Origin: Forficula auricularia
Taxonomy: Eukaryota > Arthropoda > Insecta > Dermaptera > Forficulidae
Direction of reading: 5' to 3'
Length of the DNA stretch: 64,000 nt
Assembly: GCA_024734495.1 (NCBI GenBank)
Contig: JALMQS010000722.1
Span: 1,062,254 to 1,126,253, forward strand
Shown: positions 6,311 through 62,682 of the stretch, piece after piece
Layout: every line of letters begins with the position of its first letter
Numbering within the stretch: the first letter of the stretch is position 1
Position numbers and translations under genes: made by a program
The notes under the pieces: model-generated
What the model was told of the DNA's origin: nothing
The model's database searches: none
What the model saw: only the letters and a program-made list of their open reading frames with translations

Positions 6311-6347
6311 GAGACTATAGTTTCGAGAGCTTTTCCTCTTCAACAGT
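6311..6347 (-). ncRNA. HHR-like core, degraded (left arm)
   Basis: Read on the minus strand: CTGTTGA (consensus CTGANGA with A6 changed to T), an extra A, GAGGAA with an AAGCTCTC partner, GAAA, then C-TATA-G and TC. It is the inverted partner of the core at 6375-6409 and has lost an invariant core base, so I predict it is inactive. Confidence 0.4.
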
Positions 6348-6374
6348 CTATTCCTGTGAGTCAATTGTAATAGA

Positions 6375-6409
6375 CTGATGAAGAGGGCAAAGCTCTCGAA
6401 ACTATAGTC
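6375..6409 (+). ncRNA. HHR-like core, well formed
   Basis: Order seen: CTGATGA (6375-6381); extra A (6382); helix II GAGGGC/GCTCTC with loop AAA (6383-6397; one G-T wobble); GAAA (6398-6401); stem III of two pairs with loop TATA; GTC (6407-6409). Stem I is weak (two pairs next to the core). This is the minimal type I hammerhead order known from retroelements. The single extra base between CTGATGA and helix II is atypical, and every copy in this window has at least one extra base there. Confidence 0.5.
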
Positions 6410-6590
6410 TCGTTGTAAATAAATTAAAAATGTATAATTCTATCAGAAGTCACACTCTTTTATTGTCTCCTTCAAGAACATTGTTGTAAATATGAAAAAA
6501 CAAAGAGGTTGTCCTCTGCTGGATGCAAATAAACATACACACATATATATCGAAATTATATATCTGTATATATATTATTTATTTGTTTGA

Positions 6591-6625
6591 GACTATAGTT
6601 TCGAAGGCTTGGCCCCCATCATCAG
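6591..6625 (-). ncRNA. HHR-like core
   Basis: Read on the minus strand: CTGATGA (6625-6619), extra T, helix II GGGGGC/GCCTTC with loop CAA (six pairs, two of them wobbles), GAAA, C-TATA-G, GTC. The helix sequence differs from that at 6375-6409 but pairing is kept, while loop III and the GTC are identical. It lies about 115 bp from the family A palindrome, outside any inverted repeat I can define. Confidence 0.5.
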
Positions 6626-6629
6626 TCTT

Positions 6630-7759
6630 TTTAAGTATAAATATTTTTTTTACCTTTTGGCTTCTCTTTATTCTCTGAATTCTATATTAGATATTTATTT
6701 TATTAAAAATAATTTTTATTTTTATTTCAAATGACGGTAGCTTATCGGAAATTTTTATTTTATTTAAAATTCTTTTTCGCCAAGGGGTAGAGAAAAAAAA
6801 AATATTCTTTTAAAAGAAGCAGCGAATTTTATTTTAGTTCTAATAACTGTGAAACTCATTCCTTGAAAATATCAAAAGTATATCGTCCGAGTAACAACAA
6901 TTAGATAAGAAAAACCCGTTATCCAAAACGTGAATCTATTAAATATTTTTCAAAAGGAGTTCATTTAAACAGGGAAATAAATCACAAAATACAAACAGCA
7001 ATGCACATGTTTGTGAACTTATTTGCATTAATTTTATTGCAGCTCGAGAAATAAGAATATGGGCGCTATCGGATTATCTGATTTCGAATGGAAGCCATCA
7101 AAATAAATTGTGTTGACAGACACTCAACACAGTACCCATCTGCCTATTGGTTTTTCTGAAATTCTTCTTCGTCATCTGGCTAGAGTGGTAAGGTAACGGC
7201 GTGCTTCTGTAGCGGCCGCCCAGGTGAGCGTTCTATAGAATAGACAACTAGGAGCAGAATCGATTTATTTCCCTTTAGCCGCAAACTGCATTGCTTCACG
7301 TCCCATCGCCTTTGGAACATCTCTTTTTACTGAGGCCGCATCTTTCAGGGGTCTAGTTAAGTAAGAAAAAGTAAATATCCATAAAGGAAACATCTAAATA
7401 AAAATTAAAACAATTAGAATAGGATTAATAAAAAATCTGATAAGTTATTTCGTTGATTTACCATATTATGTTGATGTGACTAAAACTTTAGAAATTATTA
7501 TCTGGTACGCTCTGTGAGCTAAGCTATTATTAGGGTATTGAATCGATCCAATTTTTTTTCTTCTTTGTTTGGTGACTTGATAATAAGAAAATGTAAGCTC
7601 GAATAAAGTTTATTCTGGTGTCATTAATTTCCAAAACAAAGTGATCCATAAGTTTTGGGATCTCTATCATCAGAACATACAGATGAAAAAATGTAGAAAA
7701 TCAGAAAAAATTGAATCGTTATATGAACGATGCATATCACATATAGTGTACCTATATAG
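6630..7759. other. Mostly AT-rich; one GC-richer SINE-like patch
   Basis: At about 7170-7340 the sequence becomes GC-richer and contains TGGCTAGAGTGGTAAGG, which resembles a Pol III A box. I could not find a matching B box, so this is only SINE-like. No coding signal. Confidence 0.35.
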
Positions 7760-7761
7760 TA

Positions 7762-8397
7762 GGGTGGTCCTTAATTTGGATGTTTTCGAATTTGTAAGCT
7801 GACATAGGTTCATATGGTCTGAAATAAATAAAAAAGAAATATCCCCTAAGTTTCAAGATTCTATCTCAATTTTAACCTGTGCCGAACAGCGATGCAAGTT
7901 TCCCATCTAAATAACATCGGGATTTTGGCTTTGAACGATCAATTTTTTATTCCGGCCAAATTGATGGTTCAAAAAATTTTGACTTTATCCTTATAATAGT
8001 AGCTATCTCTCAGAATTTTTACAGATTTTTAACTATTATAATTTTGGAGTCTATAACTTACTAACTCTAAGATATAGCAGTATTTGATCAAACTGTAACT
8101 CCAAAATTATAATAGCTAAAAAATCTATAAAAATTCTGAAAGATAGCTACTATTATAAAGATAATGTTTACAGAATTTCAAATTTTTTGAACCATTACTT
8201 TGGCAGAAATAAAAAATTGATCGTTCATTGCCAAAAACCCTATGTAATTTAGATGGGGAAACTTACACCGCTGTGCGGTACAGGTTAAAATTGAGATAGA
8301 GACTTGAAACTTAGGGGATATTTTTTTTTATTTATTTCGAGCCATATGAGCCTCTGTCAGCGTACAAATTCGAAAATACCCAAAATAAGGACCACCC
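7762..8397. mobile_element. 636-bp foldback element with GGGTGGTCC ends
   Basis: The left end GGGTGGTCCTTAATTTGGAT and its near-inverse on the right bracket two arms of about 290 bp that match almost throughout, around a spacer of about 45 bp near 8080. TA flanks both ends (7760-7761 and 8398-8399), suggesting insertion by a TA-targeting transposase. No open frame encodes a transposase. The arms differ at scattered positions, so the copy is not recent. Confidence 0.8.
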
Positions 8398-8399
8398 TA

Positions 8400-9638
8400 G
8401 ATAGAACTTGAATAGTGTTAGCCAATAAACTAAAATTAGGTAAACTAAGTGGGTATTAAAAAGCTGCACCCAGGGTTAAGTTTCAAACTTTTAATTTAAA
8501 ACGTTCACTGAGTAAAAAATTACCTATCTGCCAAAATTTGCAGAAAGGCCATGATTTTTGAAAATACTATTTACTTTTCTTCTCATTTAATTTATCATTT
8601 CCATATTTATTTGTAATTTTAATATTGTTTTTTAGTGTTGGAGGGTTGAATAAAATTTTCCTTGATGAATAACAGAGAATTTCATAAAAAATTCCAATTG
8701 AATGAAAATATTATGTCTAATACACACACAAATAAATATAGATAGAAGGTCAATCAACGGCCTTGCCATGTTTCTATTTGTTTAACGAAATTAAACAACT
8801 AAGCGACGAAGTTGTTCCCTCATTTAGTTGATTTATTACAGCCAATCTCATCTCACTAGAATGAGTCTAAAACTGGCCTCTCTTAGAATAACAACATTAG
8901 CTCTGGATCAAAGCAGCAATGAAGCTTGGTTTTCTATTCAGAACCAGGTGCTAATTTACGTTCACTCAGCTTATTACATCAAATTCGCCCCGAAGAGGAT
9001 GTGCGTCTCTTGCAACCATGGATGCAATTAAATTTTTAAGTTTTAAGTAAAAGAAATGATTAAGTTATTATTTATAGAAAAGTTACGATTTTATTATTTA
9101 ATCGAATGTTTATATCATCATCAATGAATATTTATTCAAATTTTACCTTGTAAAGTATTTATTTATTTAATATTACATTAATATTTACTAAAACATTAAT
9201 AAAAGTCTACCGCCTGTCTATTTAACAAATCTAAACATTCTACTCATTCAAGGAGAAAAATTTCACTTTTTCAAGATAAATATTATCGAACAAAATAATA
9301 TTTCTGTCTTTACAAAGAACAGAATCATCCAAAGTTTATGTTATTTTAAATAAAGTTTGAAAATTCATGCAATGGAAATAATCTAAATAATTAAATAAAT
9401 TATATTTAAAGAGATTAAAACCAACAAGATTTATCGAGTACCGGTCTTTCAAATCAAATGTTCTTGATTTTTTAAAAGCAGGTTTTTTAGTTTTAGGTCA
9501 GAGATTTAATAACATATTTTTTTATGTAATTTGCCTGGATATTTATTCAAGATCTACCATATACATTAAGCTCATTGCAATTACTTGTGGGACGTTACTC
9601 TGGAGTATGGCCTTTCTTGGAATAACCACAATCTATAT
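8400..9638. other. AT-rich stretch, unrecognised 67-codon frame
   Basis: The frame at 8828-9031 (plus) is GC-richer than its surroundings but has no motif I recognise. The remainder is featureless. Confidence 0.4.
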
Positions 9639-9639
9639 A

Positions 9640-9890
9640 CTAGAAAATCATAAGATGGTGTCATCTATTAAATCCGATGGAATGGAATATTTTTAATTAT
9701 ATGTCAGAGGGGTTGTTTTTCACCCTTCGGGAATCGAACCCGAGTGCCAGTAACAGCAATCCGGGCCATCTGCTGTTACTGGCACTCGCGTTCGATTCCC
9801 GAGGGGGTGAAAAACAACTCCTCTGACATATAATTAAAAATATTCCATTCTATCGGATTTAATAGATGACACCATCTTATTATTTTCTAG
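9640..9890. mobile_element. Near-perfect hairpin with B-box-like sequence in each arm
   Basis: Two arms of about 120 bp (outer end CTAGAAAATCATAAGATGG and inverse) close on a spacer of about 12 bp near 9765. The inner arms are GC-rich and contain GTTCGATTCCCGAG (right arm, plus) and its inverse (left arm). This matches the Pol III B-box core GGTTCGANTCC except at the first base. No matching A box is seen. It may be two tRNA-derived SINE tails joined head to head, or a foldback element that captured a tRNA end. Confidence 0.6.
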
Positions 9891-9891
9891 T

Positions 9892-10900
9892 AAAATTGAA
9901 TCTATTACCATCGGCAAATTAATGTCTTTCACAATCTATATAGCTAAATTCACTGAATATAAGCTTCGTTTCTATTCAGATCCATAAATTATAAATATTT
10001 TACGCCCAATTATTTAATAATCAATTATTTAATCATTATTATTTGATAATCAAGTTAAATAATTGTTAAAAATAATTATTAAGATTTTTTGTGATCTAAT
10101 TGATTTATGTATTTTGTTTATTTGATGTATAAAAAAATAGTTCTTATGAAAGTTGTTCAGTTTTTTTTTTTGAAGATTAAGTAGACGTAATGAAAAATAT
10201 AGGGTTCCATTTAAAAAACAGAACTTGACCTAGAAATACCCTTGAAAGCTTGTTCTACGTCGACAAACAATAGGGTAGTTTAGTTTCCCCCTCGATATAA
10301 ATAAACTTTTATTTGGAACTTTTTTCCATATAATCCACTGTTGTAGAATTATAAGATTGTCTCAAGATAAAAAACTCACTCGGTATATAGAATAAATACA
10401 GCTAAAGTATGTTTCATATTTAGGCGTAAAATTGAATCTTTTATAGGATATACGTAATAATTCTTTTTCTCTTATTTCGGGGGGGGGGGCTCATACCCTG
10501 GTGATTCCCCCATGGCCTTCATTATCGAATTAGATATAAAGCAAACAATCAAACGCTGACTCGTTTGTCTTTATGACTTCTAGAGAGTGGACCTCGCTTT
10601 TCGTTTCCGTCTTGTAGGCCATTTACAATCTCTAGTCATACAAGACATACATCAACCGATGCTTTCAACTTCGATTCAGCCATTCTCTTCTCTTCACGAT
10701 GTATGGATCAATTCTGACTTATAGGGTTCTAAAAAGTTTCACCTTGAATTGACGCCTAACTCTTTAAAAATTATAGGGTTGTATTTTTGTTCTGTAACAC
10801 CTGACTTAAATAAGCTGACGTGTTCTGATGTGGCGTGGCCATCCACTTGACTTTACCATACAACCTGGCCCCTCACTTATATTTAATATTTAGTAAAATT
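9892..10900. other. AT-rich stretch with a G tract
   Basis: No gene. A run of ten G occurs near 10481-10490. About 10500-10720 is of more even composition without a recognised motif. Confidence 0.5.
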
Positions 10901-11715: not shown

Positions 11716-13685
11716 CTTTTTTTTTTTTTTTAATGCAATCGAATGCAAGAAGGGGTGCACCAGTAAAGATGTAGCCCTATGGATCTCGAAAGACCCTTGC
11801 ATTACCGAAGAGAAGGGAAAGTTGATTAAGTGAGAGGGTGTAGACGTAGGTGTCTATGCACCCTGGTTTTGAAGGTTTGAAGATCATAGGTGCTGGGAAA
11901 GATAGAGGCTGGGAGAGAGTTCCAGTTCCTTGAAGTCATGGGGATATATGAATTCGCGAATGAAGTGGTCCGGCACTTTTCTAATTTGACCGCGAAAGAG
12001 TGTTGGGAGTCGGCAAAACGTGTGCTGCGTGCAAAGTATGCTTTGGGGGGAATTATTGATTTTATCTCATCAGAGCACCTGCCGTGATAGTATCTATAGA
12101 AAAGGGAAAGGGCGGAGACATCTCTTCGATGAGCCAGCGAGTCGAGGGAGTCGGTGAGGGTAGAATCGTCAATTAGCCTGACGGCTCGTTTCTGAATTGC
12201 ATCAAGGGTAGCAAGAGAATATTTTGAGGCTCCTCTCCACAGATGAGAGCCGTATTCGAGACAGGGGCGGATTTGGGCCTTGTAGATGGTGAGAAGTTGT
12301 GGGGGTTTGTAAAATCGCTTGGACCTGAATAAGAAGCCAATCTTCCTTGCTGCAGATTTCGCCACAGAGGAGATGTGTTCATTCCAAGACAGGTCAGATG
12401 CGACAGAGACGCCCAACATGGATAGGCTGTCACACATTTTCAGGGTATTCGAATCGAAGTGAATATCAGGGAAATCTCTATTTTCGCGCCTAGAAATTAG
12501 ACAACATTGAGTCTTATTTGAATTAAAGTTAACTAAATTTTGAGAGCCCCATTTATTCAGTTTGTCTAGGTCGAGAGTAATTGAGGAGGCAATATTGATT
12601 CGATTATTCGGGAGAGAGGGTTTGCCGTGTAGAGTGCTATCGTCGGCGTAACAATGAGTGGGGTTTGCCGTTTGATCAATAAGGTCGTTTATATAAATAA
12701 GGAAGAGTGTGGAGGAGATTACAGAGCCTTGGGGAACACCAGAGTTTGTGGAGAACGATTCAGAAGATGTTCCATCCACCACAACTTTTATACTTCGGTT
12801 TGTCAGAAAGCTTTCAATCCATTTGCGAAGTGTTGGTGTGAATCCAAAGGCTGGTAGTTTGGCAAGAAGATTTTTGTGCCAAACCTGGTCAAAAGCTTTG
12901 GAGATATCAAGGGCTACAGCGAGGTTTCTTTTCCGGCCTCTAGAGTATTGTTCAAGGTGTGGGTGACATAGGTTAAGATGTCGCCTGTGGAACGATTTTG
13001 TCTGAATCCATATTGCCTATCGTGAATTAATTTATTGTTTTCTAAGTGATGAAGGACGTGTTGGTTTATGACTAATTCCATTAATTTGGAAAGAACAGAG
13101 GTGATCGAGATAGGCCTGTAATTAGAGATTTGTGATGTGTCTCCTTTTTTAGGAATAGGTGTGACTCTGGCTATTTTCCAGCTTTTTGGGGAATATGCCC
13201 GACTCGTAAGAGAGTTGGAATAGCTTGGATAAGATAGGGGCAAGTTCAGGGGCGCATTTTTTAATGAGAATTGGTGGGATGTTATCCGGGCCTGCGGCGG
13301 ATTTGGAATTTAATTTATTAATGGCTTTTATGATTATTTGGGGCCTGAAAATTATTTTGCCCATGAGGTTGGTTTGGGGGGTATAAGTGGGCGGGTTAAG
13401 CCCTTTGTCATCTAAAGTGGAGTTAGTTGCGAAATAGGATGCTAGTGATTCGGCTTTTTCAGCGGGGGTCGTGGCTACTGAACCATTTGGGTGAAAGAGG
13501 GGCGGAAGTGAGGGGGACGCGAAATTTCTATTTATTGCCTTGTGTAACGAGAAAAAGGCCCGTTTTCCATTGGGGCAAGATGCGAGACGGTCAGCTATCC
13601 TCTGGTCGAATGATTTCTTTGCCTCAGAGATGATTTTTGCATGAGCTTCGCGACTTGGTAAATGCAACTCGGTCACATTCTAGCT
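11716..13685 (-). mobile_element. LINE (non-LTR retrotransposon), 5'-truncated
   Basis: A minus-strand insertion of about 1.95 kb. Its 3' end is a run of about 15 T on the plus strand near 11720-11733 (the poly-A tail), preceded in element direction by a short 3' UTR and the coding region at 11826-13676. The endonuclease and ORF1 are missing, so it is 5'-truncated as LINE copies usually are. I found no clear target duplication. Two more degraded copies of the same 3' end lie at 33905-34700 and 44862-45150, both in the same orientation. Confidence 0.9.
11826..13676 (-). pseudogene. LINE reverse transcriptase, two compensating frameshifts
   Basis: The minus strand encodes the linker and reverse transcriptase of a jockey/I/CR1-type LINE. 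Seen in order: NKLNSKSAAGPDNIPP (RT start), IARVTPIPKKG and NYRPISITSVLSKLMELVI, YGFRQNRST, then DISKAFDQVW, GVPQGSVISSTLFLIYINDL, the catalytic CYADD, LGVSVASDLSW in the thumb, and a typical C-terminal LAHRRDVSALSLFYRYYHG. The reading frame is broken twice: one extra A in an A5 run (T run at 13183-13187), then one missing A in an A4 run (T run at 12929-12932), which restores the original frame. Apart from these the frame is open for about 1.85 kb, so the copy is fairly young. YADD is intact. I cannot decide the clade more precisely. Confidence 0.88.
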
Positions 13686-19649: not shown

Positions 19650-19756
19650 TATAAACAAAAATAAATTATTTTATTCTTAAATTTGCCAAAGTGCGTGAGT
19701 GGTACTCCGATATTAAGTTTTTCATCTATTAACTAAACTAATTTTTTTTAATTTAA

Positions 19757-19925
19757 AGTTTCTTTTTGCCGAGAGTAGCATATTTTTTATAAATTGAAGG
19801 AGACAATAAGAGTGTGTCTTCATCCATTAATTCCTGTGAATCACTTGACTGATGAATGAAGAGAGCAAAGTGCTCGAAACTATAGTCTCGTTATAAATAA
19901 ATTAAAAATTTATAATTTTTTATAA
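19757..19925 (+). mobile_element. Family A element, partly deleted copy
   Basis: It shares with 6217-6420 the leader AAGTTTCTTTTTGCCGAGAG, the phrase AAATTGAAGGAGACAATAA, and the core through AACTATAGTCTCGTTATAAA. The left arm of the palindrome is mostly missing, so this copy is not a full foldback. It carries one HHR-like core on the plus strand. Confidence 0.7.
19849..19887 (+). ncRNA. HHR-like core with four extra bases before helix II
   Basis: CTGATGA (19849-19855) is followed by ATGAA and then GAGAGC/GTGCTC with loop AAA, GAAA (19876-19879), C-TATA-G, GTC. Compared with 6375-6409, ATGA has been duplicated, adding four bases at the core/helix II junction, and helix II has one mismatch. 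I predict this copy is inactive. Confidence 0.4.
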
Positions 19926-27998: not shown

Positions 27999-28159
27999 TC
28001 AAAATTAAAATAATATATAGAAATTTACTCGTCATCCTCTAACTCAATAATTCTATGCGAGTTATTTCGAATCTAAAACTAGAGTTGGCATCCAGTAGAG
28101 TTTGTTCGATGCTAGACATAATCATCTAATTTCAATAGTTTTTAAGGAATTTGGTGTTG
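27999..28159. other. AT-rich, nothing seen
   Basis: Short AT-rich interval between the R2-type fragment and the next foldback. Confidence 0.5.
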
Positions 28160-28392
28160 GTACTTGGTGAAACATTTTTAAAATTATTGGATAAAAAATA
28201 CTTGGTAGGTTTCACATTAAGATATAAAAAATAAAACGAATTTATTTTTGGTGTTACTTTCTGTTTCTCCTGAAGATGGGTTAGTCACCCGAAATATACT
28301 ATATATATCGAGATTTAAAATTCTCCAAAAATAAATTCGTTTTATTTTTTACATCTTAATGTGAAACCTACCAAGTATTTTTTATCCAATAA
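28155..28392. mobile_element. Family B foldback with HHR-like core in the loop
   Basis: Arms of about 70 bp (TTATTGGATAAAAAATACTT, GGTAGGTTTCACATTAAGAT and their inverses, about 28184-28252 and 28322-28392) flank a central region with one HHR-like core. A head GTTGGTACTTGGTGAAACAT just left of the palindrome recurs as TATAGGTTCTTGGTGAAACA at 35345 and, more divergently, near 58995. The three copies therefore share one layout: head, arm, HHR-like loop, inverted arm. Confidence 0.75.
28266..28313 (+). ncRNA. HHR-like core, best-formed copy
   Basis: Stem I TCTC (28266-28269) pairs with GAGA (28310-28313). Between them: CTGAAGA (28270-28276; position 7 of the hammerhead core is variable), extra T (28277), helix II GGGT/ACCC with loop TAGTC, GAAA (28291-28294), stem III ATATA/TATAT with loop CTATA, and C at the cleavage position (28309). 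All three helices form, which is the strongest case in the window. The extra T before helix II is the only departure from the textbook core. Confidence 0.6.
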
Positions 28393-28394
28393 CA

Positions 28395-29600
28395 TCTAAT
28401 TTCATATTGATACCTATAATATGTAAGCTGTATATAAAAACTTTGGTAATTACTATAAGATATACCATAAATAAGTGTGAGCCTGACTTGGGGGATTAGG
28501 TTTCGGTAGAAGAGAGGTCACATAGGCAACTTTATAGTTTCATAGCTTGAGGAAACAAAATATAAATTACCAGATCAATCCTTATGATTAGGGAAATTTG
28601 TTTCGAATATAAAAAAGTCGATCAAGTGCACTAAAATTTTCAAAACTGAAGTTGATCGATTTGGCTTGGTGTTTGGCCCTAATTAAATAAATGTCTCATG
28701 TTCACCTGAACAAAGTAAAGCTGACGAAAGCATGAGACACACCACTTCATCTCAAATAATAAGGACGTTCTTCACAAATAATCAGTGCTTTACATTTTAA
28801 ATTCCCCCCTGTCGCTTATAAAGGTGTGTGCCGCTGATTTGCTTTGATAATGCATACCTACTTGTACTGAATAACTATGGTATCGTAAATATATTCTAAA
28901 TAAGTATATTACTTTCTCTTCTTGCTTTCCTTATTTTCAGATAATTATCATATTATAAACTTTTATTTCGGTGAAGCACCATTACCTAAATAAAGCAAAT
29001 AAGCTGAAATTGAAAAGAAAGTGATAAAATTTTAAGTTATTAATAAGAATACGAGTAATATTACTTTAAATTTTATAACTAATAGCGAATTCCTTTCCGA
29101 ATCCTCTAAAAATTCTTATCTACATTCTTACACAAATTAACTAAAAATCATATTATCCACACTATTCCTCAAATTAGAAAATAATCTTAACTTTATTTGG
29201 CAATTTGTTTTTCCTCGTAAATTCAAATAACTGGGATTCCCTTTCTACTTCTATTTTTTATGAATTCTAAAGATTTCAAGTGTCGACTCCGCCTGATCAT
29301 AGAAAGTACCGGGAGAATCTCTGGCAGACCTGTCCACGGGTCAAAAAGTCGCATGAGGGGGCAGCTCGATTCTTTTTTTCCCGGTAGCTAGGGACTCAGC
29401 AAATAACTTCTACTCCGATCCAATATTTAAGTATCCTTAAATTGCTATCAGCCACTTTATTACCTCTAGTAAACAATTTATCCAATTAAATTTGAACAAT
29501 TTTGTACTGTATCATTGGAGGATTAAGTGAAAACTTTTTTAAGTTTCAGTTCGCTTTCTCATAAATTTGATGATTCGGAAATTTTTATCAGCAAACAGAT
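28395..29600. other. Mostly AT-rich, no recognised gene
   Basis: No termini or frames recognised. A GC-richer patch near 29280-29400 shows no motif I can name. Confidence 0.5.
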
Positions 29601-29651
29601 ATGTATTAATGAGAATTAAGGACAAGTATTTTGTGTGATTTTTTTATTTTT

Positions 29652-29687
29652 CACCAACGTTTCGTCGACTTTGCCGACTTCTTTAAG
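29652..29687 (-). ncRNA. HHR-like core, degraded (left arm)
   Basis: Minus strand: CTTAAAGA in place of CTGANGA, then A, helix II GTCGGC/GTCGAC with loop AAA, GAAA, C-GTTG-G, T, G. Helix II is intact but the core is mutated and the cleavage-site base is G, so activity is not expected. Confidence 0.4.
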
Positions 29688-29944
29688 GTTTCTACAAAGA
29701 CGAGAACATTATTAATAACAAACTGCAGAAGTACATTATCACTTCAGACTAAACATATATTAATTTTTTTTCTTTTTTTTTTTGAATTTCTGATGGTCAT
29801 TAATAACAGGAGATAAGAAAAATAATGTATTTTTGTAACTATTTGGTAGGTAAAAATGTTTGATATATGCTTGGTCTGAAGTGATAATTTACTCCTGCAG
29901 TTTGTTATTAACTTATTAAAAATGTTATCGTCTTTGAAGAAACC

Positions 29945-29979
29945 CCGAAGAAGTCGGCAAAGTCGACGAAACGTTGGTG
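29945..29979 (+). ncRNA. HHR-like core (right arm)
   Basis: CCGAAGA (one change from CTGANGA), extra A, helix II GTCGGC/GTCGAC with loop AAA (six pairs, one wobble), GAAA (29968-29971), C-GTTG-G, then TG. A G at the cleavage position and a weak stem I predict little or no cleavage. Confidence 0.42.
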
Positions 29980-30113
29980 AAAAATAAAAAAAACTCACAA
30001 AAACTTGTCCTTAATTCCCATTAAAAAACTCTAAATCGAATTTTTTTGTCTAAATTCAAAGTTATATGTAGAAACACCACCTTTCGTGTTTGGTAAATGT
30101 TTTGAGTTTACTT

Positions 30114-31850: not shown

Positions 31851-31960
31851 ACTAATTTGAGCCGCGAAAGTTAAATAATGTAATCAATAATTTCTTATGT
31901 TAATTCTACATATTTAGAAAATTATTTTATTATTTTTTGAAAAGGAAAAAAATAAATTGA

Positions 31961-32031
31961 GCACCCGACGGGATTCGAACGCGTTCTCTCCTCTTTAGCC
32001 GAAGATCGCCTTTACCAACTAGGCCACGGAT
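31961..32031 (-). tRNA. tRNA-like block (pseudo-tRNA or SINE head)
   Basis: Minus strand: CGTGGCCTAGTTGGTAAAGG (A-box region), TCTTCGGCTAAAGA as an anticodon-arm-like hairpin, and GTTCGAATCCCG (perfect B-box core). The loop CGGCTAA would place GCT as anticodon, and the long stretch before the B box recalls a serine-type variable arm. The acceptor stem is poor, so I do not call a working tRNA. Confidence 0.45.
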
Positions 32032-32108
32032 ATTCCCGCCAGGAAAAACTCTTTAGATTGAATGTCATTTTTCCTTTATCAATCTAAAGAGCTTTCTTGG
32101 CGGGAAAA

Positions 32109-32178
32109 TCCGTGGCCTGGTTGGTAAAGGAGATCTTCGGCTAAAAGAGAAAGACACTTGTTCGAATCCCGTCGGGTC
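32109..32178 (+). tRNA. tRNA-like block, inverted partner
   Basis: CGTGGCCTGGTTGGTAAAGG, ATCTTCGGCTAAAAGA and TTGTTCGAATCCCGTCGGG repeat the layout of 31961-32031 on the other strand, with about half a dozen differences. The same A-box-like and B-box-like elements and the same GCT-like loop are present. Both copies read outward from the centre of the palindrome. Confidence 0.45.
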
Positions 32179-32284
32179 CTCAATTCATTTTTCCTTTTCA
32201 AAAATAATAAAATAATTTTCTAAATATGTATGTAGAATTAACATACGAAATTATTGATTACATTAACTTTCGCTGCTCAAATTG

Positions 32285-35114: not shown

Positions 35115-35340
35115 CGACAGACACCCTGGACTCGTTTCTTCGAACTTATCAGGCTAGAAAGTGAAGTTCACTTTTTCTTAAAATATAATTTTCAATATCA
35201 TATCTGATATTTTATTTTATCATATTATAATATAATGTTCTTTTTTTAAAGATCATTTCTAATTTTTTTCCTAAAGCTAACTGTCAATAATTTCTTATTT
35301 CACCAACCAAGCTTAGACTTTGGCTTTTTGTTAAAGGAGA
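35115..35340. other. AT-rich, nothing seen
   Basis: No recognised content. Confidence 0.5.
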
Positions 35341-35344
35341 ATGG

Positions 35345-35940
35345 TATAGGTTCTTGGTGAAACATATTTTATTAAAAGTAATGAAAATTTTAAAAATTTA
35401 AAAAAAATTTTAAAATATAAAAGATTCTAGGTAGGTTTCAGAAAAAAAAAAAAGCCAGGATTCTTGTTAGCATGACTCTATAGTCTATATATATATTTTC
35501 TCTTTGAACTCGTGAAGATGAGCTCGTAGCCCGAAAGTATATAGCAGAGGGTGTTTCAAAAATACTTTTATAAACTTCGAGCATGGGTTTTACATCAAAA
35601 GAAGGAAAAAGGTTCATATAAACATATGTCACATAATCCTTTGTTTTCTCGTTAGGATCTGTTCAACACATTGATATACTCATAACACGTCAACACACAA
35701 AACTCATTCATTAATAAATGAATAACAAGAAAACAAAGGATTATGGGACTTATGTTCATTTGTTCATATGAACTTATTTCTTTCTTTTGTGTGTAACCAT
35801 GCCGAAAGTGTCAAAGTATTTTTGAAACACCTATAGAGTCATGCTAACAAGCATCTTGTCTTTTACTTTTGTGAAACCTACTTAAAAATTTTAGATTTTT
35901 TTTTAATTTAAAAAAAAATTTAAATTTTCATTACTTTATT
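35345..35940. mobile_element. Family B foldback, nested/expanded copy with HHR-like core
   Basis: Outer arms contain GGTAGGTTTCA / TGAAACCTAC, then CATGACTCTATAG and inverse, then GGGTGTTTCAAAAATACTTT and inverse. The centre (about 35630-35770) is a further palindrome with CATAATCCTTTGTTTTCTCG and its inverse. The head TTCTTGGTGAAACATATTTT matches the head at 28160. There is one HHR-like core at 35511-35544, with a remnant GCCGAAAGTGT on the right side near 35800. It is the longest family B copy. Confidence 0.7.
35511..35544 (+). ncRNA. HHR-like core, degraded
   Basis: GTGAAGA replaces CTGANGA; then T, helix II GAGC/GCCC with loop TCGTA (one mismatch), GAAA (35533-35536) and a GTATATAG stretch. 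The changed first core base predicts loss of activity. Confidence 0.35.
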
Positions 35941-35945
35941 AGACT

Positions 35946-37376
35946 TTAGCATTTAAATTAACATCAACTAACTTTCAATGTAAATTAATAAATTGAAAAT
36001 AATTAATTTCAATTTAAGTAAAGGTAAGCAAAACTTTTACTCTAAGAAGCATTAGTTAAATAGAATTTACCAAAAATGTTGGTTTGAGATTAATTAAGTA
36101 ATAAGTGCTACTTTAAGTTTAAGTTGTGTTGGCGAAATCTAAAAAAAAAAAAACTTAAAATTGTTTTATCTAATGAACATGAATAAGAAATACAAACGAC
36201 GAACAAGATTTCATATTTCTATTATATCTCCGTTAATTTAATATGATAGTTTCCTTATTTGGAATCATGTTCCAAAAACTCATTTAAGAAACCTTGCTTT
36301 AAACATTTATTGTAGAATCGAGAGATTATAAAAAAGATTGGATACAAGAAAAAATTATTAATATATTTTCAGACACGATGAAAGAGCGACGTAAAGACAC
36401 AAAATGAAAATAATTTTTTTATCGTTGATTCTGTTAATGGATATTTTGGCTATATTTAAAAAAATATTCTATTAAAAATTTCTAAAATATATAATTAAAC
36501 ATAATGAATTGCGATTGAATTACATAGTATCAAAATGAGTTATCTTAATTAATAATAGTCTTTGTACGAGTAATATGGGAAATTAAACCATCGTCTGAAG
36601 TTAATAATAATAATAATAAAATAATAAAAGCCTAAAATATATACTTTTTTTAATATTAAAAATAAACAATTTAATTTTCCTGCCTTGCAATTGATTATGA
36701 GAATTTTAATGGCTTTATTTAATAGAAAATATATTTTAATAGAGGAAAATGTGAAGAACGTTTAGTTTTCTTATCTGATGGTTGTATGTTGCTTATGGTT
36801 TTTTTCCATCTCGGAGGTCAAAAAACGAAAAATAGGTATTCCAAAGATGAGTGATCTGATGGGATCATTAGTGATTAAAAAGTGAATTCTATTGATCAAG
36901 CCTAATCATGATTTCGAAGGATTTGAATTATCTAGACCGCAAACATCACGATGGATGGTTCTAAATGTCTCACTAATTATTTCTATTTTTATAATTCAGT
37001 GAGTGCGTGGGCGTTTGAGACGTACTGAACAGTTAGAAAAAAACACTATACTTAATTTCTTTACTATAGTGTTCAGACAATGTTTGGGAAATTGACTCAG
37101 GAATTTCACATGAAGTTCTATTTTGATTTAACTTTGATACCAGCTAGGATTTCCTACAGGAATTTTTCAAATATGATTTCTTGTTGTTAATAATAAAACT
37201 TTTTTATTTCAGTTTTATTAGAATTAAAGCTAAAACAACAATGCTATAATGGGTTTAATTATAATCGAATGATTTCTATATTTGAATCAATCGCTAATCA
37301 AATGTAGGGAATTTTTCTCAAATATTAGTGAAAATAATATCTGAACTTATATATTTCTAACTTGAAATAATGATAT
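35946..37376. other. AT-rich stretch with TAA microsatellite
   Basis: An imperfect (TAA)n run lies at about 36601-36627. Otherwise no features recognised. Confidence 0.5.
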
Positions 37377-47221: not shown

Positions 47222-47750
47222 AAATTAGTAATTTATAATCTGTCCAAAAACATAAATGTGAAAAAGGGGCCATGTTCGGTACAAACGGCTTCGCCGACAA
47301 AAGAGTTGATATCTAAATGGGTACCAAGTTCCATAGCAGTTGCTTAAATCATAGCTATAGGGATGTACAACTTCAAATGATTTAAAAGAAAATTTGTTAC
47401 GTTCTTTGATATTAAATTTAAAAGTTGGCAAGTTATAATAATCAATAAATTAGGTTTAACGTGATGATATTTAATACAAGTTTAAAATTTAACTACGCTA
47501 GTTGTTTTATTCTATACTACAAACAATTTAGTCGGACATAAAACTTACCAAGTCATAAATTCAATATCAAAGAACCTAACAAATTTTCTTTGAAATCATT
47601 TGAAGAACGTTGTACATTCCTATAGCTATGATTTAAAAACTGCTATGTAACTTGGTACCCGTTCAGAACTCTTTTGTCGGCGAAGCCGGTTGTACCAAAC
47701 TTGGCCCCATTTTCACATTTATTTTTTTGGACATATATCATTAATTTTTG
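47222..47750. mobile_element. Foldback element, arms about 200 bp
   Basis: TGTCCAAAAACATAAATGTG, CGGCTTCGCCGACAAAAGAG, GGTACCAAGTTCCATAGCAG and AATCATAGCTATAGG on the left appear inverted, in reverse order, at 47560-47732. The spacer of about 130 bp is AT-rich. The minus frame 47225-47431 lies inside an arm and is not credible as a gene. Confidence 0.78.
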
Positions 47751-52540: not shown

Positions 52541-52632
52541 CTAAAGAAGGTTAAAGGTTTTATGATGTTTCACAGTTAAAATAACTTTAATTAAATTTAT
52601 CTGTGAAACACGACAAAAACCTTTAACTCTCT
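52541..52632. repeat. Short inverted repeat (possible MITE)
   Basis: AAGGTTAAAGGTTTT ... GTTTCACAG is inverted (CTGTGAAAC ... AAAACCTTTAA) around a spacer of about 28 bp. The TTTCACA words recall the arms of the family B foldbacks. Confidence 0.6.
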
Positions 52633-52928
52633 TTAATTGTCAAATGTTAAATTACAAACCAAGTCCGCATTCTCTTAGTTTAATTAATGATAGAAACAGA
52701 ATGCATAATATAGAAAAACAATTCAATTATGTTTCTACTCACTAAAGTCTACAGCAGGGGTGTCCAACCTTTGGCTTACACGGGCCGCATTTGAAGTAAA
52801 AACAAATACCTAGGGCCGCAGATAAAATATCCTAATTCTATTGAAATTTTTTAATAAAAAAGAATTAATAAAATGTAAAATAATGATATCCAACACGACA
52901 AAGAAGCAAAAATATCTTTAAAATATAT

Positions 52929-53104
52929 AACAGGATATAGTAGGGAATTGGATAAAATTAAAAACATAGAGTTTTTAAATGGGCCAGTCGTTTCGTCAAT
53001 TTATTTTGACTACCTCAGTGGATACAAAATTGAGGAAACGTCTGGCCTATTAAAAAAAACTATATGTTTTTAATTTTATCCAATTCCCTACTATTCCTGT
53101 TATA
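52929..53104. mobile_element. Foldback nested in the hAT element
   Basis: AACAGGATATAGTAGGGAAT, TTGGATAAAATTAAAAACAT and AATGGGCCAG on the left are inverted on the right (CTGGCCTATT ... ATTCCCTACTATTCCTGTT). The loop region carries an HHR-like core on the minus strand. Being inside the hAT, it arrived later than the hAT or was copied with it. Confidence 0.72.
52984..53018 (-). ncRNA. HHR-like core, variant
   Basis: Minus strand: CTGAGGT (one change from CTGANGA at A9), extra A, helix II GTCAA/TTGAC with loop AATAAA (five perfect pairs), GAAA, then CGACTGG. Helix II is unlike all other copies yet fully paired. The mutated core base and poor stem III predict inactivity. Confidence 0.4.
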
Positions 53105-53429
53105 AATTTACTATGGATACGAATGATGTAACGTTATCTTAAAAATATTTATATCTAGTAAAATATGGAGTCAAAATATGACAAAATTGTGATTATTTTT
53201 CGATAATCTTGATATATATTTTTTCACATTCAAAATCTAAATTCTGGCCTTTTATTTTTCGAAAATTTTTGAGGAGATTGTCCAATTTCTTCTTATTTAA
53301 AAAAAAAATTAAGTCAAATTGTATCAGACATGTTTTCCAGTAAGTATATAAAAATCTTAATGTTTTAAAGAAATTTATAATTTTATGTCGGGTCGCATGC
53401 GGGTTGGACAGCCCTGCTCTACAGCTTTG

Positions 53430-55006: not shown

Positions 55007-55668
55007 CGTTATACTGCTCGACAAAAATTAAACAAAAATTTCTTTTCGTAAACCTAATAATGGATTCGAGTAGAGTTTCATACGCTGATTATCATGCAAT
55101 TTCCCGATTTTTTACAACACATCATCGTTTTGAGATATTATCGGTCAAAATGACGAAAAAGGCTATTTTTACCTATTTTCGAGTCCCATTAAATATTAAA
55201 CAACAATATTTGAAATCAAAATATTTTGTTGACGTAATAGAAAACAGCTCCCTCTTGATTTTCAAATTACCACTTGTTTTTCGCTCAATTAGAAGTCGAG
55301 TTATAACAAAAAAACTAAGACTAGGTATTTATGTACGTTTATTATCCTTTATAATCACGTAGTTTTAGTTTTTTAGTTATAACTCGAGTTCTAATTGATC
55401 TAAAAACAAGTGGTAATTCGAAAATAAAATAGGAAGCTGTTTTCTATTAGGCCAACAAAATATTATGATTTCAAATATTGCTGTTTAATATTTAATGGGA
55501 CTTGAAAATAGGTCAAAATGACCTTTTTCGTTATTTTGACAGATAATATCTGCAAAATCCTGACGCGTTCTAAAAAATCGGGAAATTGCATGATAATCAG
55601 CTTATAAAAGTCTACTGGAATCCATTGTTAAGTTTACGGGGTAAATTTTTTGTCGAACAGTGTTATTA
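55007..55668. mobile_element. 660-bp foldback nested in the hAT
   Basis: Left arm phrases GTTATACTGCTCGACAAAAA, TGATTATCATGCAATTTCCC, GTCCCATTAAATATTAAACA and CAAGTGG... appear inverted and in reverse order on the right up to ATTTTTTGTCGAACAGTGTT. The arms are about 310 bp with a spacer of about 40 bp near 55340. The plus frame 54949-55362 runs through it and is not a real gene. This is the third level of nesting in the locus. Confidence 0.75.
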
Positions 55669-56915: not shown

Positions 56916-57704
56916 CAGTCGACTCTCGATAATTCGGAAACCAAGGGACTACAAGAAAAATTCGAATTATCGAGACTTCGAATTATCATGACGTTTGAAT
57001 TATCAAGAGTAAAGAAAATAATTGGAATTATTAAGTTTTTATTATATTTTTGAAAATATTCATGAGCTTACATAGATTTTATATTATATATTCTCTCAAG
57101 TAAAAAAGTAAAAATAATGAAAACGACAAAAAATAACAAAAAAATTACATATGTATTAACATTGCAATAGATAATATCATACCTAATAAAAAAAATACGA
57201 ATAGTTACTATTACTACATTATAATTCTGCTGAGAATGAAGTACAATATATTATTTTTACTGCCACTGAAAGAGGAGACAGAGAGGAATGTCGCATTGAT
57301 TTCCTTCACTGAATTTTCAAAACCCTTAAGAAGGAGGGAATAGCCTCCGAAATGTCGGTTTTATGAATAAAAGATAAAAATATGGATTTACTATGAGTTA
57401 AGGAACACCTTGCACCAACACCACAATCTCTACTGATTATTAATAAAAAGATAGTTTAAATTATCTTCTTTTTTTAGACTGCCTCATCGATATCCACTCA
57501 ATTAAGAATAGTTTTTTCCTAGGAAAAAATCGAATTATAAAGAGGGGAGTGGCCTCACGTTCTTTCACCCTCTTGTTATGAAAAAGATTTCGAGGTATCG
57601 AGTGTATCAAAATACACCGCATTTTTTTCGATTTACCGAAGTTAACAGCTGAAATTTATCGAAAAATTCGAATTATCTAGGTTCGAATTGTTGAGAGTCG
57701 ACTG
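56916..57704. mobile_element. pogo-like element with CAGTCGACTCTCGATAATTC ends
   Basis: CAGTCGACTCTCGATAATTC is inverted at the right end (finishing TTGAGAGTCGACTG) and TA flanks both sides (56914-56915, 57705-57706). Several further TTCGAATTATC words repeat just inside, as in subterminal binding sites. No transposase frame is left in 789 bp. The interior carries an HHR-like core (57325-57358) that looks like a nested insertion, though its limits are unclear. Confidence 0.82.
57325..57358 (+). ncRNA. HHR-like core
   Basis: CTTAAGA (one change from CTGANGA at G5), extra A, helix II GGAGG/CCTCC with a GAATAG loop (five perfect pairs), GAAA (57349-57352), then TGTCGG. The helix sequence is unlike the other copies yet fully paired. 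The change at G5, an invariant hammerhead base, predicts inactivity. It is followed by ATGAATAAAAGATAAAAAT, similar to the A-rich text after family C cores. Confidence 0.38.
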
Positions 57705-58989: not shown

Positions 58990-59285
58990 AAGCGGTGTTG
59001 GTTTATAGTGAAACATATTAAACACAGGAGTTTTTAACGGGTTATAGTGGTGTTTCACAAAGAGTGAAATAAAAATTTAAAAAATTAAAAATTTCTTTAA
59101 TTATATTTTTGGAGATTTTTTATTTTTCTCTATACATATTTCGGGTTACGAGTCCATCATCGGGAGGTTAACAAAAGTTAAAAATCTCCAAAAATATAAT
59201 TAAAGAAATTTTTAATTTTTTTAATATTTATTTCCTCTTTGTGAAACACCACTATAACCCGTTAAAAACCCCTGTGCATTATATT
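58990..59285. mobile_element. Family B foldback nested in the pogo-like element
   Basis: The head GGTGTTGGTTTATAGTGAAA leads into arms AACACAGGAGTTTTTAACGG, GTTATAGTGGTGTTTCACAA and TTAAAAATTTCTTTAATTAT and their inverses (about 59017-59115, 59178-59276). The loop holds an HHR-like core on the minus strand. A partial copy of the same subfamily is at 60020-60240. Confidence 0.78.
59128..59166 (-). ncRNA. HHR-like core
   Basis: Minus strand: stem I CTC pairs with GAG; CCGATGA (one change from CTGANGA); extra T; helix II GG(A)/(C)CC weak; GAAA; stem III AT-ATGT-AT; A at the cleavage position. Stem I and stem III match the copy at 60077-60116. Confidence 0.42.
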
Positions 59286-59870: not shown

Positions 59871-60019
59871 TTATTAAGTGAGTGAGAGTCATGAAGGTAT
59901 GTATGACGGGTACTTTGTACAAATGAGGATTTTGGGGGATTATTGACTTCATCTAGTAATAACAATTGCAATGGTAGTATCTATAAATAAATAAAGAGAC
60001 GAGAAGGCTCTACAATGGA

Positions 60020-60240
60020 CGAGGAAATATTCTTTTAGGACAATGTAAAAATTTTATATTCAGTTTTCTGTTAAACCTCCTGATGAAGGGGTTCATAGCC
60101 CGAAATATGTATAGAGATAAATAAAAAAAAATCTCCAAAATAATTTAAAAGATTTTTTTAATTTTTTTAATTTTATTTCCACTTTGTGAAACACCACTAT
60201 AATCCGTTAAATAATTCCTGTGTTAAATAATTCCTGTCCT
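60020..60240 (+). mobile_element. Family B element, truncated copy
   Basis: It shares with 59010-59285 the core and the right arm (AAAAATCTCCAAAATAATTT, TTTGTGAAACACCACTATAA, CCGTTAAATAATTCCTGTGT). The left arm is mostly missing. It carries one good HHR-like core. Confidence 0.7.
60077..60116 (+). ncRNA. HHR-like core, well formed
   Basis: Stem I CTC (60077-60079) pairs with GAG (60114-60116). Between: CTGATGA (60080-60086, intact), extra A, helix II GGG/CCC with a longer loop, GAAA (60102-60105), stem III AT-ATGT-AT, and A at the cleavage position. One of the two best copies; helix II is short. Confidence 0.52.
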
Positions 60241-60244
60241 TTAG

Positions 60245-61570
60245 GAAGGGCTGTATAATTTTGAAGTAGCTGTACACTCTGGTAATTGATTTGTCATTTG
60301 GTTATTTAATTATAAAGGATTATCAAGTACATATTCATATTTTTTTAATATTAATTAATAGTTTTATATTTTAACGAGACATTTCTAATTGTCTAATTGT
60401 ACATTTAAATTTACATATCTATAATTTAATTAAAGAATTTGTTAATATTATAAACATAATTATTGTAAGTGTAATAATATATAGATAAAGATGTATCTCG
60501 TAATATGATTGAATCCATAGGATGTATCAATTCACCATTAGCAGAGCACTTAAATGCTTGTTTAGAAAATAAGTTGATAGAGCTCAATAAGCTTATTCCT
60601 TATTAAAGTTGAAAGGAATGAGAGCATTTAAGAAAAAATCAAGAGAAGAAACCGACACTCATCAATCAAAACAAAAGCCACCAACTGACCAATTAACTAT
60701 TGGAAGCGGGCCCACTGGAAAAAAGGAAAGGACAAATGTTAGTACGTCGCAACAATTAGAACGTGAAAATGGAACAGTAATTCCAAAAATGCATTACATG
60801 AATGTTTACTGGCTTCATGCTTTCAGAATTTTTTCATTTATGTACTTACTTTTCTAGAAAAATGTAAAACAAAATCTTTTCAATTAATTTCTATGAATTA
60901 GCCCAAACATCTAAATTGGCAATTTTCTTCAACGGTGGACCGCGGATAAAATATTATAATTCTCTTGATATATGTTATTCAAAAAAGATAGTTAATAATG
61001 TAGAAATAAGAACTTTATTATTTTTTTAGATGATAGTGAGCTTCTAATTTTACTTTTCGTAAATTTTATACTTGAAAATAGCTTCTCGTATATGTAAATA
61101 CATACAGAACAGCATATACTCTCGCCGGTCAACCACTCAATAACACGACCTACCTAAGGTTATAATGATCTAAATAGGTTTCAATTATTATATATTAATT
61201 TGGTGCTAATTGCTTCAGGACAAAAGCATTTATCATATTTAGAATCATCAACAAAGCGAAATCATTCAATGAAACTATGGGTCAGAAATGTTTATTGTTG
61301 TCTGAAAGAATAAATGATAAATAAATTTAAAAAAAATAATAATAATTACTTTTTACTTAATCAATAGAATAGCGAACATCTATCAGATAACTAGCAAAAT
61401 ACAACTGAATTTGTTATATTTACATTTTTTTGAAAAATTTTTAGAGTTTAATTATTATTATGATTTTTGCTTTCTTGATAGATTCTAGCTTCATTTGCAG
61501 AAATTAGAACGAAAATAATATAAACATGTCGAATAATCATAATAATTTTTTATTATCCGAGAAAGATCTA
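60245..61570. other. AT-rich; unrecognised 82-codon frame
   Basis: The plus frame at 60609-60857 (KKKSREETDTHQSKQKPPTD, hydrophilic, then a hydrophobic C-terminus) has slightly coding-like composition and follows another short open stretch (60485-60606), but no domain is recognised. It may be a pseudogene scrap. Confidence 0.3.
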
Positions 61571-61573
61571 GCT

Positions 61574-61837
61574 TCTAGCATATGAGTGTAGTTAGGAAGG
61601 GGCAAGCGGAGGCCCCCTTACGAAATATTGCCCCCTAGAAATATCGAAACTCAACTATTACGAGGCATGATTTATGTACTTTTTATTAAATTATTTGTTT
61701 ACTTTCATGTCATTTTTACTAAAAAATTAGTTGATCTCTAATTGGATTACCGAAATTGAAACTTTGTGGTGGCTAATCAGCTGGCCGGCTGCCCCCCCCC
61801 CTAGGAAAACTCCCTAACTACGTCAATGATCTAGCAT
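61574..61837. mobile_element. hAT-type MITE with perfect 8-bp target duplication
   Basis: TCTAGCAT occurs at 61574-61581 and 61830-61837, exactly bracketing a 248-bp element with imperfect ends GTGTAGTTAGGAAGG and CTCCCTAACTACGTC. Subterminal GGGGCAAGC and C-rich blocks are of the kind seen in hAT MITEs. No coding capacity. The intact duplication suggests a recent insertion. Confidence 0.82.
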
Positions 61838-61839
61838 GG

Positions 61840-62010
61840 AAAAAATTATTTGTAAACCTTATTTTTATTAATTGAAATTCTTTTCATTTTGTTTCTTTTT
61901 CATTTTATATTCTTTCATATTTCGATTCATTTTTATGTGAAAATTATTAATTTAAGACATTCATTTATCAAATTCTAATAGTTTAAAAAAAAACTTTATG
62001 GTGGGGATTA
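61840..62010. other. AT-rich, nothing seen
   Basis: No recognised content. Confidence 0.5.
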
Positions 62011-62011
62011 T

Positions 62012-62185
62012 CAGGGCCAGATCTAGGGGGAGGGCAAGGGCACTTGCCCCCATCGACAAATTTTAAGAAGCAGCACATTTTGGGAAGAGGGAAATTTTTT
62101 GTATATATTTAGATTTGGGTGTTGGGGGAGTGGCGGCAAATTCAAGCACCCCCCCCCCCTGACAAAAGACCTAGATCCGTCTCTG
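62012..62185. mobile_element. hAT-type MITE, 174 bp
   Basis: CAGGGCCAGATCTAGGGGG and the inverse of CAGAGACGGATCTAGG close the element. These ends are typical of a widespread hAT MITE type. Runs of C lie inside. The flanking 8-mers match poorly, so the duplication has decayed. Confidence 0.72.
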
Positions 62186-62515
62186 GGTATTTTTATTTAA
62201 TATTTAATATTTGTTTTGAAAAATTCTATAATAATGGTTTGCCAAGAATAGTATTAGTATCAAAGTTCCTATATAATTAGACAAGTAAAACTTTAATTTA
62301 ATTATAAGTCATTTCTTTTAATTGTGTTATAAAAGGAGTGAGGTGTTAATTCTAGATTAAACATTTTCAACAAATCTATTTATTTATTTTGTTCTAGATG
62401 AGATTTCAACAAGAAAGGAAAGAGAAAGAGAGTGAGGCTATAATCCACCCCGTCCCCATCCCCAAAATTATAATAATAATTATTATTATCATTTCCGTCC
62501 ATAATTTGTATTAAT

Positions 62516-62682
62516 TTGAAAGTTTATAATAGGAAAATTTAGAAGATAACTAGAAAATTTAGACAAATGTGTGGCATGACTATTTGAAGACCTGAAGAAG
62601 TCAGCAAAGTCGACGAAACGTTGGCTGATAAATAAAAAGTCACACATAAAAACTTGTCCTTTTTCCTATTATAAACTTTCAA
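62516..62682 (+). mobile_element. Family C element with short terminal inverted repeats
   Basis: TTGAAAGTTTATAATAGGAA (62516) is inverted at 62661-62682. Inside is one HHR-like core followed by AAATAAAAAGTCACACATAA and ACTTGTCCTTTTT, matching the text after the core at 29945. Unlike 29605-30030 this copy is not a full palindrome. Confidence 0.7.
62592..62626 (+). ncRNA. HHR-like core
   Basis: CTGAAGA (intact consensus, 62592-62598), extra A, helix II GTCAGC/GTCGAC with loop AAA (one mismatch), GAAA (62615-62618), C-GTTG-G, CT. Loss of the U before the cleavage position weakens stem III. Confidence 0.45.

Follow-up and report, generated by a model that had tools for sequence, protein, structure and literature searches.

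Penelope-like pseudo-LTRs as probable carriers of hammerhead ribozymes with one extra core base in the earwig Forficula auricularia

A 64,000-nucleotide stretch of the Forficula auricularia genome (contig JALMQS010000722.1, positions 1,062,254 to 1,126,253; hereafter the window) contains thirteen dispersed sequences that resemble the catalytic core of the hammerhead ribozyme, most of them with one additional base between the conserved A9 and helix II. We propose, with a probability of about 0.85, that hammerheads with this extra base are carried by the pseudo-long terminal repeats (pseudo-LTRs or pLTRs) of Penelope-like elements (PLEs), and that the short foldbacks around many of them are inverted insertions of the same region lacking an open reading frame (ORF). 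Judged from sequence, the carrier is a Penelope-like retroelement. An initial annotation, prepared from the letters of the window, had brought in PLEs merely as background, and they now turn out to be the actual carrier.

All thirteen places listed in that annotation are hammerhead-like cores, distributed over both strands (Table 1). Its statement that every copy has an extra base holds, with exactly one base, for eleven of the thirteen; the copy at 60080 has one or two, the two-base register giving the better pairing, and the copy at 19849 has five inserted bases, produced via a duplication of TGAA after A9. Similarly, the core motif CTGANGA is intact in six copies, and the other seven carry one or two core changes. 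The helix II sequences given earlier (GAGGGC/GCTCTC, GGGGGC/GCCTTC, GTCGGC/GTCGAC, GGGT/ACCC, GGAGG/CCTCC and GTCAA/TTGAC) are correct, and the location of most copies within foldbacks is confirmed for nine of thirteen, those at 6625, 19849, 57325 and 60080 being outside such structures or only partly inside.

As a test against chance, both strands of the window were scanned for a core with at most two mismatches, an insert of 0-3 bases, helix II, GAAA, U16.1-H17 and helix I, the chance expectation being taken from 100 second-order Markov sequences. An insert of one base gave 13 scan rows against 2.5 expected; inserts of 0, 2 and 3 gave 2, 4 and 4 rows against 2.2-2.4 expected. These 13 rows are not identical with the 13 copies: eight correspond to named copies, one (53006) to the arm facing the 53018 copy in its foldback, and four are low-scoring and chance-like; the more decayed named copies were missed by the scan. 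With a score threshold of 5, seven rows are left for the one-base insert, against 0.31 expected, and six for the other inserts together; five of the latter are named copies read again in another register, and the sixth (6728) is chance-like. We also used a test independent of pairing, which takes every CTGANGA with a GAAA 10-26 nt downstream. It found nine such pairs in the window, and a helix II of at least 4 bp was present in three of them at insert 1 and in two at insert 2, a small sample.

The regular presence of the extra base extends well outside the window. In 20 evenly spaced 10-kb stretches (L055-L074), representing 200 kb of one large contig of the same genome, the scan revealed 42 copies in which the insert is a single base, where 0.8 would be expected by chance. 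No copy lacks an extra base or has two, and the three copies with three extra bases are related to each other and have a changed pair beside the core. The pairing-independent test detected 56 CTGANGA and GAAA pairs in this sample, compared with five for the reversed core, and a helix II of at least 4 bp was found in 24 of them at insert 1, compared with 2, 0, 1 and 0 at inserts 0, 2, 3 and 4. Among the 35 pairs with a helix of at least 3 bp, the extra base is T in 27 and A in eight, never C or G; alone, this bias is weak evidence, since N7 is equally biased (A or T in 33 of 35). Genome-wide (1.06 Gb), 14,742 exact matches were counted for a single pattern representing two families (CTGANGA, with or without an extra base, then a helix II with the closing GC-AAA-G, and GAAA), against none for the reversed control. 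The extra base, read by eye, is present in all of the pattern matches listed, nearly always as A and once as T. If the sampled contig is typical, scaling 42 copies per 200 kb to 1.06 Gb would bring the genome total to the order of 2 x 10^5 copies.

The earlier suggestion of a dispersed family in which compensating changes keep the structure is supported by pairing statistics in both the window and the sample. In seven family representatives from the window, helix II is paired in 27 of 28 cells (P=0.0008, whole 3' strands being dealt among families), and helix I, which had not been used before, in 20 of 21 (P=0.002). The helix I signal is partly attributable to the inner end of the foldbacks, yet the 57325 and 60080 copies, which lie outside foldbacks, keep six and three pairs, respectively. 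Among the 42 sampled copies, helix II occurs in 23 distinct types, in which 84 of 92 cells pair (against a mean of 55 and a maximum of 70 after shuffling), and helix I in 20, with pairing in 54 of 60 cells (against a mean of 25.6 and a maximum of 41); these counts are inflated, as the scan demanded a helix II of 3 bp and the position of the cut was picked to favour helix I. U16.1 and H17 were required by both scans and are therefore not independent evidence. The stem III segments, whose end is set by the best helix I, are mostly 4-10 nt long and are self-complementary in 30 of the 42 copies. Separately, an AATAAA motif stands 4-30 nt past the predicted cut in 15 of the 42, against a 6% background; it is a candidate polyadenylation-like signal or a part of stem I.

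Unconstrained folding of six isolated pieces gave the hammerhead shape for 28262-28317 and 57317-57362 and helix II for two further pieces; the remaining two, 60072-60118 and 62584-62630, adopt other folds. The minimum-energy fold of the 57325 copy has a 6-bp helix I and a 5-bp helix II. Among 13 folds of whole elements or longer stretches, 57270-57425 is again hammerhead-shaped and 28184-28392 forms helices II and III, the rest pairing arm to arm or otherwise. The isolated 56-nt piece of the 28270 copy adds helix I to these two helices, with a stability no greater than that of its own shuffles. Rfam gave no hammerhead match at gathering scores across the window, nor in 15 loci (113 kb) that include 37 of the 42 sampled copies and four pLTRs, and searches of short stretches, with matches accepted up to E 10, likewise yielded no hammerhead family. 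These misses may be due to the extra base or to the small stem III.

The identity of the carrier emerged from GIY-YIG ORFs of the genome. A genome-wide search with the Pfam GIY-YIG domain yielded 150 scored matches from 3423 candidates, and seven frames among the matches listed are open over 841-864 codons. One contig (G000:C563, 410889-416831) harbours a tandem Penelope array with three GIY-YIG ORFs of 858, 858 and 427 codons, spaced 2.9 kb apart on one strand, in which GIY-YIG (30.9 bits) and RVT_1 (63.1 bits) are detected in separate pieces. The named proteins among the 120 listed relatives of the PLE ORF are mostly from insects, with one from Anolis, and several relatives contain both domains. 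In four of the six 5' flanks of GIY-YIG ORFs examined (L075-L078), the pseudo-LTR carries a hammerhead with an extra U, arranged as CTGATGA-U-GAAGAC/GTCTTC-GAAACUAUAGUC. A conserved tail starts 113-115 nt downstream of the predicted cut, and the first Met lies 196-198 nt downstream of it in the three flanks that reach the ORF. The L075 pLTR, which is located between two GIY-YIG ORFs of the tandem array, has a close counterpart in the window at 6498-6648 (Table 1). Furthermore, two window tails match that of the PLE with an E of 7e-6: 6200-6241, belonging to the foldback 6247-6475, and 19747-19788, belonging to copy 19849. Window positions 1-31 also correspond to a piece of this tail (E 2e-6). 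No PLE-type ORF with reverse transcriptase and GIY-YIG was present among the six long window ORFs scanned, so the window copies are, as far as tested, non-autonomous.

With a PLE as carrier, the foldbacks can be explained as two pseudo-LTR arms in inverted orientation, one of which exceeds the other by the tail, set between target duplications. This agrees with the signature published for Penelope, which consists of pLTRs in inverted orientation and a short target duplication, a 31-bp tail being optionally present at the 3' end of one of the two pLTRs (PMC3846280). We collected 38 non-redundant foldbacks with a hammerhead from the window and the fetched loci (44 before removal of overlaps). 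A flanking direct repeat scoring at least 10 was found in 25 of them, and in 24 of these 25 one repeat is within 10 nt of the inverted-repeat end and the other 25-49 nt outside; the 24 scored target duplications measure 10-20 bp. In a control of 4000 random spans, 267 scored at least 10 and 53 had the tail pattern. Some foldback tails are AC-rich (ACCAACACC) and others share CTGCTACTCTCGGCAAAAACTTTCAATTT, which is near the PLE's own tail. In the foldback at 62513-62688, the sole candidate for a target duplication is a microsatellite and was not counted. An idea suggested by eye in three window elements, that the foldback arms end at the cleavage site and would thereby record cleavage in the genome, was dropped because the arms extend upstream of the core in 19 of 23 non-redundant cases (out of 89 matches, with a filter that excludes alignments crossing the foldback centre).

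The extra base is unusual, not unique, and we found one precedent for it. According to one study, the plus hammerhead of chrysanthemum chlorotic mottle viroid (CChMVd) has an extra A10 between A9 and G10.1; U in its place gives a 3-4 fold higher rate, C or G is detrimental, and the ribozyme still cleaves with the extra A or with U there (PMC3705267). A definition of the hammerhead without insertions in or beside the core would not fit our sample, in which 42 of 45 hits have one inserted base. We read these extra-base cores as a hammerhead variant because the CChMVd ribozyme with A10 counts as a hammerhead. Given the viroid data, the A or U at this place is compatible with an active, perhaps slow, ribozyme. 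A large hammerhead search discarded matches that depart from the core letters or are mispaired beside the core, and it reports rare variants in which insertions after A6 and near C3 reduce activity and an insertion in GAAA is expected to be harmless (PMC3088659). Our literature search found no family-wide extra-base hammerhead in PLEs, the main papers on PLE hammerheads and on the viroid A10 being outside its coverage.

These elements suggest how the insertions might arise. In a transcript of a tandem array or a pseudo-LTR, helices I and II, both supported by covariation, would fold with the extra A or U presumably bulged between A9 and the pair 10.1-11.1. The short, mostly self-complementary stem III could pair two copies, and the resulting dimer, perhaps helped by the PLE protein, would cleave after H17. 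The PLE reverse transcriptase with its GIY-YIG nuclease may then cut both strands of an AT-rich target, and cDNA synthesis could start at two template sites 25-49 nt apart, one for each target end, as the foldback anatomy and a published in vitro system suggest. Extension of both target ends, each from one start site, would leave an inverted pair with a one-sided tail. Since transcripts of full foldbacks would mostly pair arm to arm, active ribozymes are likelier in transcripts of pLTRs or tandem arrays. Like the viroid A10, the extra base would probably be tolerated or even useful, and it would have been fixed in the PLE lineage before its split into many families. Taken as a whole, the scenario combines a PLE lineage whose ribozyme is active as a dimer, perhaps with help from protein, and has a fixed, functional A or U at position 10, roughly 10^5 copies missed by Rfam models, and foldbacks mass-produced via cDNA starts from both target ends at two template sites; we hold it only tentatively, at somewhat less than even odds.

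Several observations weigh against these proposals. Self-cleavage after H17 is only a prediction for the present copies, and in most full foldbacks the arms would pair together instead of folding as ribozymes. Two of the six examined ORF flanks (L079 and L080) have rearranged 5' ends and no hammerhead, and in L077 a broken partial copy of the ORF is interposed between the hammerhead and the long ORF. The extra base is C in one of the pattern matches listed. Of ten window foldbacks without a recognised hammerhead used as a control, two score, both with a tail and a target duplication, which indicates that this signature belongs to the mobilising machinery and not to the ribozyme. For the viroid, one paper attributes a moderate loss of rate to the extra A (PMC3705267) and another a weak activity (PMC11014351). 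Finally, in the Anolis PLE, RNA with a dead hammerhead was still inserted in vitro, no RNA ends were observed at the cut site, the ribozyme cleaved only in the presence of the PLE protein, and no difference in cDNA start site was seen between the target strands, which disfavours the step with one site per target end (PMC11167929).

Part of this evidence also fits another explanation, namely that what is conserved is a fold serving the PLE protein for binding or as a start structure, the extra base having made the ribozyme weak or inactive and self-cleavage being unselected. The presence of the extra base in nearly every copy would agree with this, as would the independence of PLE insertion in vitro from hammerhead catalysis and the lack of RNA ends at the cut (PMC11167929), the reported weakening of the viroid ribozyme by its extra base (PMC3705267, PMC11014351) and the lowered activity of other hammerheads with insertions after A6 or near C3 (PMC3088659). 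On the other hand, it is not only the pairing but also the catalytic letters that recur, as seen from the 56 core and GAAA pairs versus five with the reversed core, and the viroid ribozyme still cleaves with an extra A or U (PMC3705267). We regard this explanation as unlikely, though deserving serious consideration.

Alternatively, the hammerheads could be fossils, a few dead masters having been copied so that the apparent covariation reflects a handful of ancestral differences. Core changes in seven of the 13 window copies fit such decay, but 23 helix II types keep 84 of 92 pairs, some GIY-YIG frames are open over 841-864 codons and the motif is present in four of the six flanks examined, which makes the fossil origin improbable. 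Still harder to sustain is a third possibility, that the foldbacks are palindromic DNA transposons (miniature inverted-repeat transposable elements) with an incidental hammerhead-like motif whose pairing is just that of the inverted repeat. It could account for the foldback location of nine of 13 window copies and for the inverted copy found within 900 bp of 28 of the 42 sampled hammerheads. However, helix II is a local hairpin separate from the arms, the 57325 copy folds as a hammerhead outside any foldback, and a one-sided tail accompanies the target duplications of 10-20 bp; for family A, the identity of 6498-6648 to a PLE pLTR refutes it. We therefore consider it very improbable, and retain the PLE pseudo-LTR as the source of the foldbacks.

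Minimal type I hammerheads of PLEs were reportedly described by Cervera and de la Pena in 2014 and by Lunse, Weinberg and Breaker in 2017. In two papers that treat them, they are located in pseudo-LTRs, have a diminished stem III, are dispersed by thousands and are thought to cleave as dimers (PMC7761336, PMC6155905). The earwig copies resemble them in pseudo-LTR location, diminished stem III and dispersal by thousands, and differ, as far as the descriptions in these citing papers go, in that nearly all of them have an A or U inserted after A9, ahead of helix II. With the CChMVd hammerhead they share an extra base at the identical place (PMC3705267), here almost only A or U; there it concerns a single viroid ribozyme, whereas here it is found throughout a family of animal retroelements, the pattern matches numbering at least 14,742. 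The Penelope elements of bdelloid rotifers are similar in the inverted orientation of their pLTRs, the shortness of the target duplication and the optional tail (31 bp there), but their target duplications are of 8-10 bp (PMC3846280) versus 10-20 bp in the 24 scored here, and the insertions examined here are short, ORF-less foldbacks. In the Poseidon PLE of Anolis, too, a hammerhead lies about 85-90 nt upstream of the cDNA start, and the target is cut and extended on both strands; the tail is delimited by two cDNA start sites and equals the stretch between them, in an AC-rich stem-loop (PMC11167929). A difference is that the first Met of the earwig ORF lies about 197 nt after the predicted cut. 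Metazoan retrozymes are likewise short, non-coding, equipped with type I hammerheads and possibly mobilised by PLEs, but they are described as direct tandem repeats giving circular RNA (PMC7229834), in contrast to the inverted foldbacks with tail and target duplication seen here. Direct tandem repeats of the retrozyme type (about 150-400 bp) with hammerheads were absent from the window self-comparison pairs above 45 bits, where the copies with a hammerhead occur in inverted orientation or far from each other.

The near-invariance of the hammerhead core is textbook knowledge, and an extended core as a genome norm would show that one of its positions is freely expandable. It would also mean that searches with present models undercount animal hammerheads. 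The thousands of natural variants would constitute a library for testing the effect of the viroid A10, and the foldbacks with one-sided tails form a large natural record of Penelope insertion, a poorly understood step.

Table 1. Positions of hammerhead-like copies, the pseudo-LTR piece and foldbacks in the window.
Feature	Position	C3	Strand	Details
Hammerhead, family A	6375..6409	6375	+	insert A; stem III ACTATAGT; triplet GUC
Hammerhead, opposite arm of 6375 foldback	6313..6346	6346	-	insert A; A6>U
Hammerhead in solo PLE pseudo-LTR piece	6591..6625	6625	-	insert U
Hammerhead, family A	19849..19887	19849	+	TGAA duplication after A9
Hammerhead at foldback apex	28270..28309	28270	+	insert U; triplet AUC
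Hammerhead, left foldback arm	29656..29686	29686	-	insert A; C3>U, G5>A
Hammerhead, right foldback arm	29945..29975	29945	+	insert A; U4>C
Degraded hammerhead	35512..35546	35512	+	insert U; C3>G, 16.1 changed
Hammerhead	52987..53018	53018	-	insert A; A9>U, 16.1 changed
Hammerhead outside any foldback	57325..57356	57325	+	insert A; GUC; G5>U
Hammerhead at foldback apex	59131..59163	59163	-	insert U; U4>C; two helix II pairs broken
Hammerhead	60080..60113	60080	+	insert A or AG
Hammerhead in foldback	62592..62622	62592	+	insert A
PLE pseudo-LTR piece	6498..6648		-	90% identical over 153 alignment columns to L075 pLTR, E 8e-56
Foldback, two inverted pLTR arms	6247..6475			tail 6202-6246; exact 12-bp target duplication 6190-6201 / 6474-6485
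Foldback	28184..28392			AC-rich tail 28135-28183; exact 12-bp target duplication 28123-28134 / 28393-28404
Foldback	35375..35937			AC-rich tail ~35325-35374; 12-bp target duplication, one mismatch, 35313-35324 / 35939-35950
Foldback	52921..53109			tail 53110-53134; 14-bp target duplication, one mismatch, 52913-52926 / 53135-53148
Foldback, hammerhead in each arm	29606..30024			no clear target duplication
Foldback, apex hammerhead	59015..59284			AC-rich tail on left; no clear target duplication
Foldback around 62592	62513..62688			terminal inverted repeats by eye; absent from self-comparison matches

Other palindromes of the window are devoid of a recognised hammerhead. The element at 9638-9892 is a near-perfect palindrome that contains a tRNA B-box-like motif; its target duplication measures 13 bp, and its 37-nt tail (CTATTACCATCGGCAAA) is similar to that of the PLE. 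Both arms of the foldback at 31854-32283 include tRNA-like sequence, its target duplication is of 12 bp and its one-sided tail of 46 nt, and ARAGORN reports a tRNA-Pyl within it (31959-32033, minus strand). We infer that the PLE machinery also mobilises cargo without a recognised hammerhead, as in 9638-9892 and 31854-32283, both of them tRNA-like inside. A further foldback at 52542-52635, with an AC-rich tail-like stretch on its right and neither a recognisable hammerhead nor a target duplication, is possibly a decayed member. Large palindromes at 1982-2428, 7760-8399, 47238-47736 and 55047-55638 have no recognised hammerhead or tail pattern. Rfam microRNA matches at the foldbacks 9723, 24849, 31990 and 55262 are below gathering scores and resemble those of plain hairpins.

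Pattern scans of viral and prokaryote sequences gave 27 matches in 26 stretches, which is about the chance level, most of them in coding-like contexts; one of these matches (L009) has all six helix II pairs. In viral contigs, a single-protein query detected no PLE relatives, and an alignment query returned 49 short, low-identity loci, taken as prokaryotic. Lastly, the window carries at 11829-13016, on the minus strand, an ORF for a non-LTR reverse transcriptase (RVT_1), whose named relatives are mostly from insects, among them seed beetles and butterflies, and a diverged copy of this ORF is located at 34037-34698.

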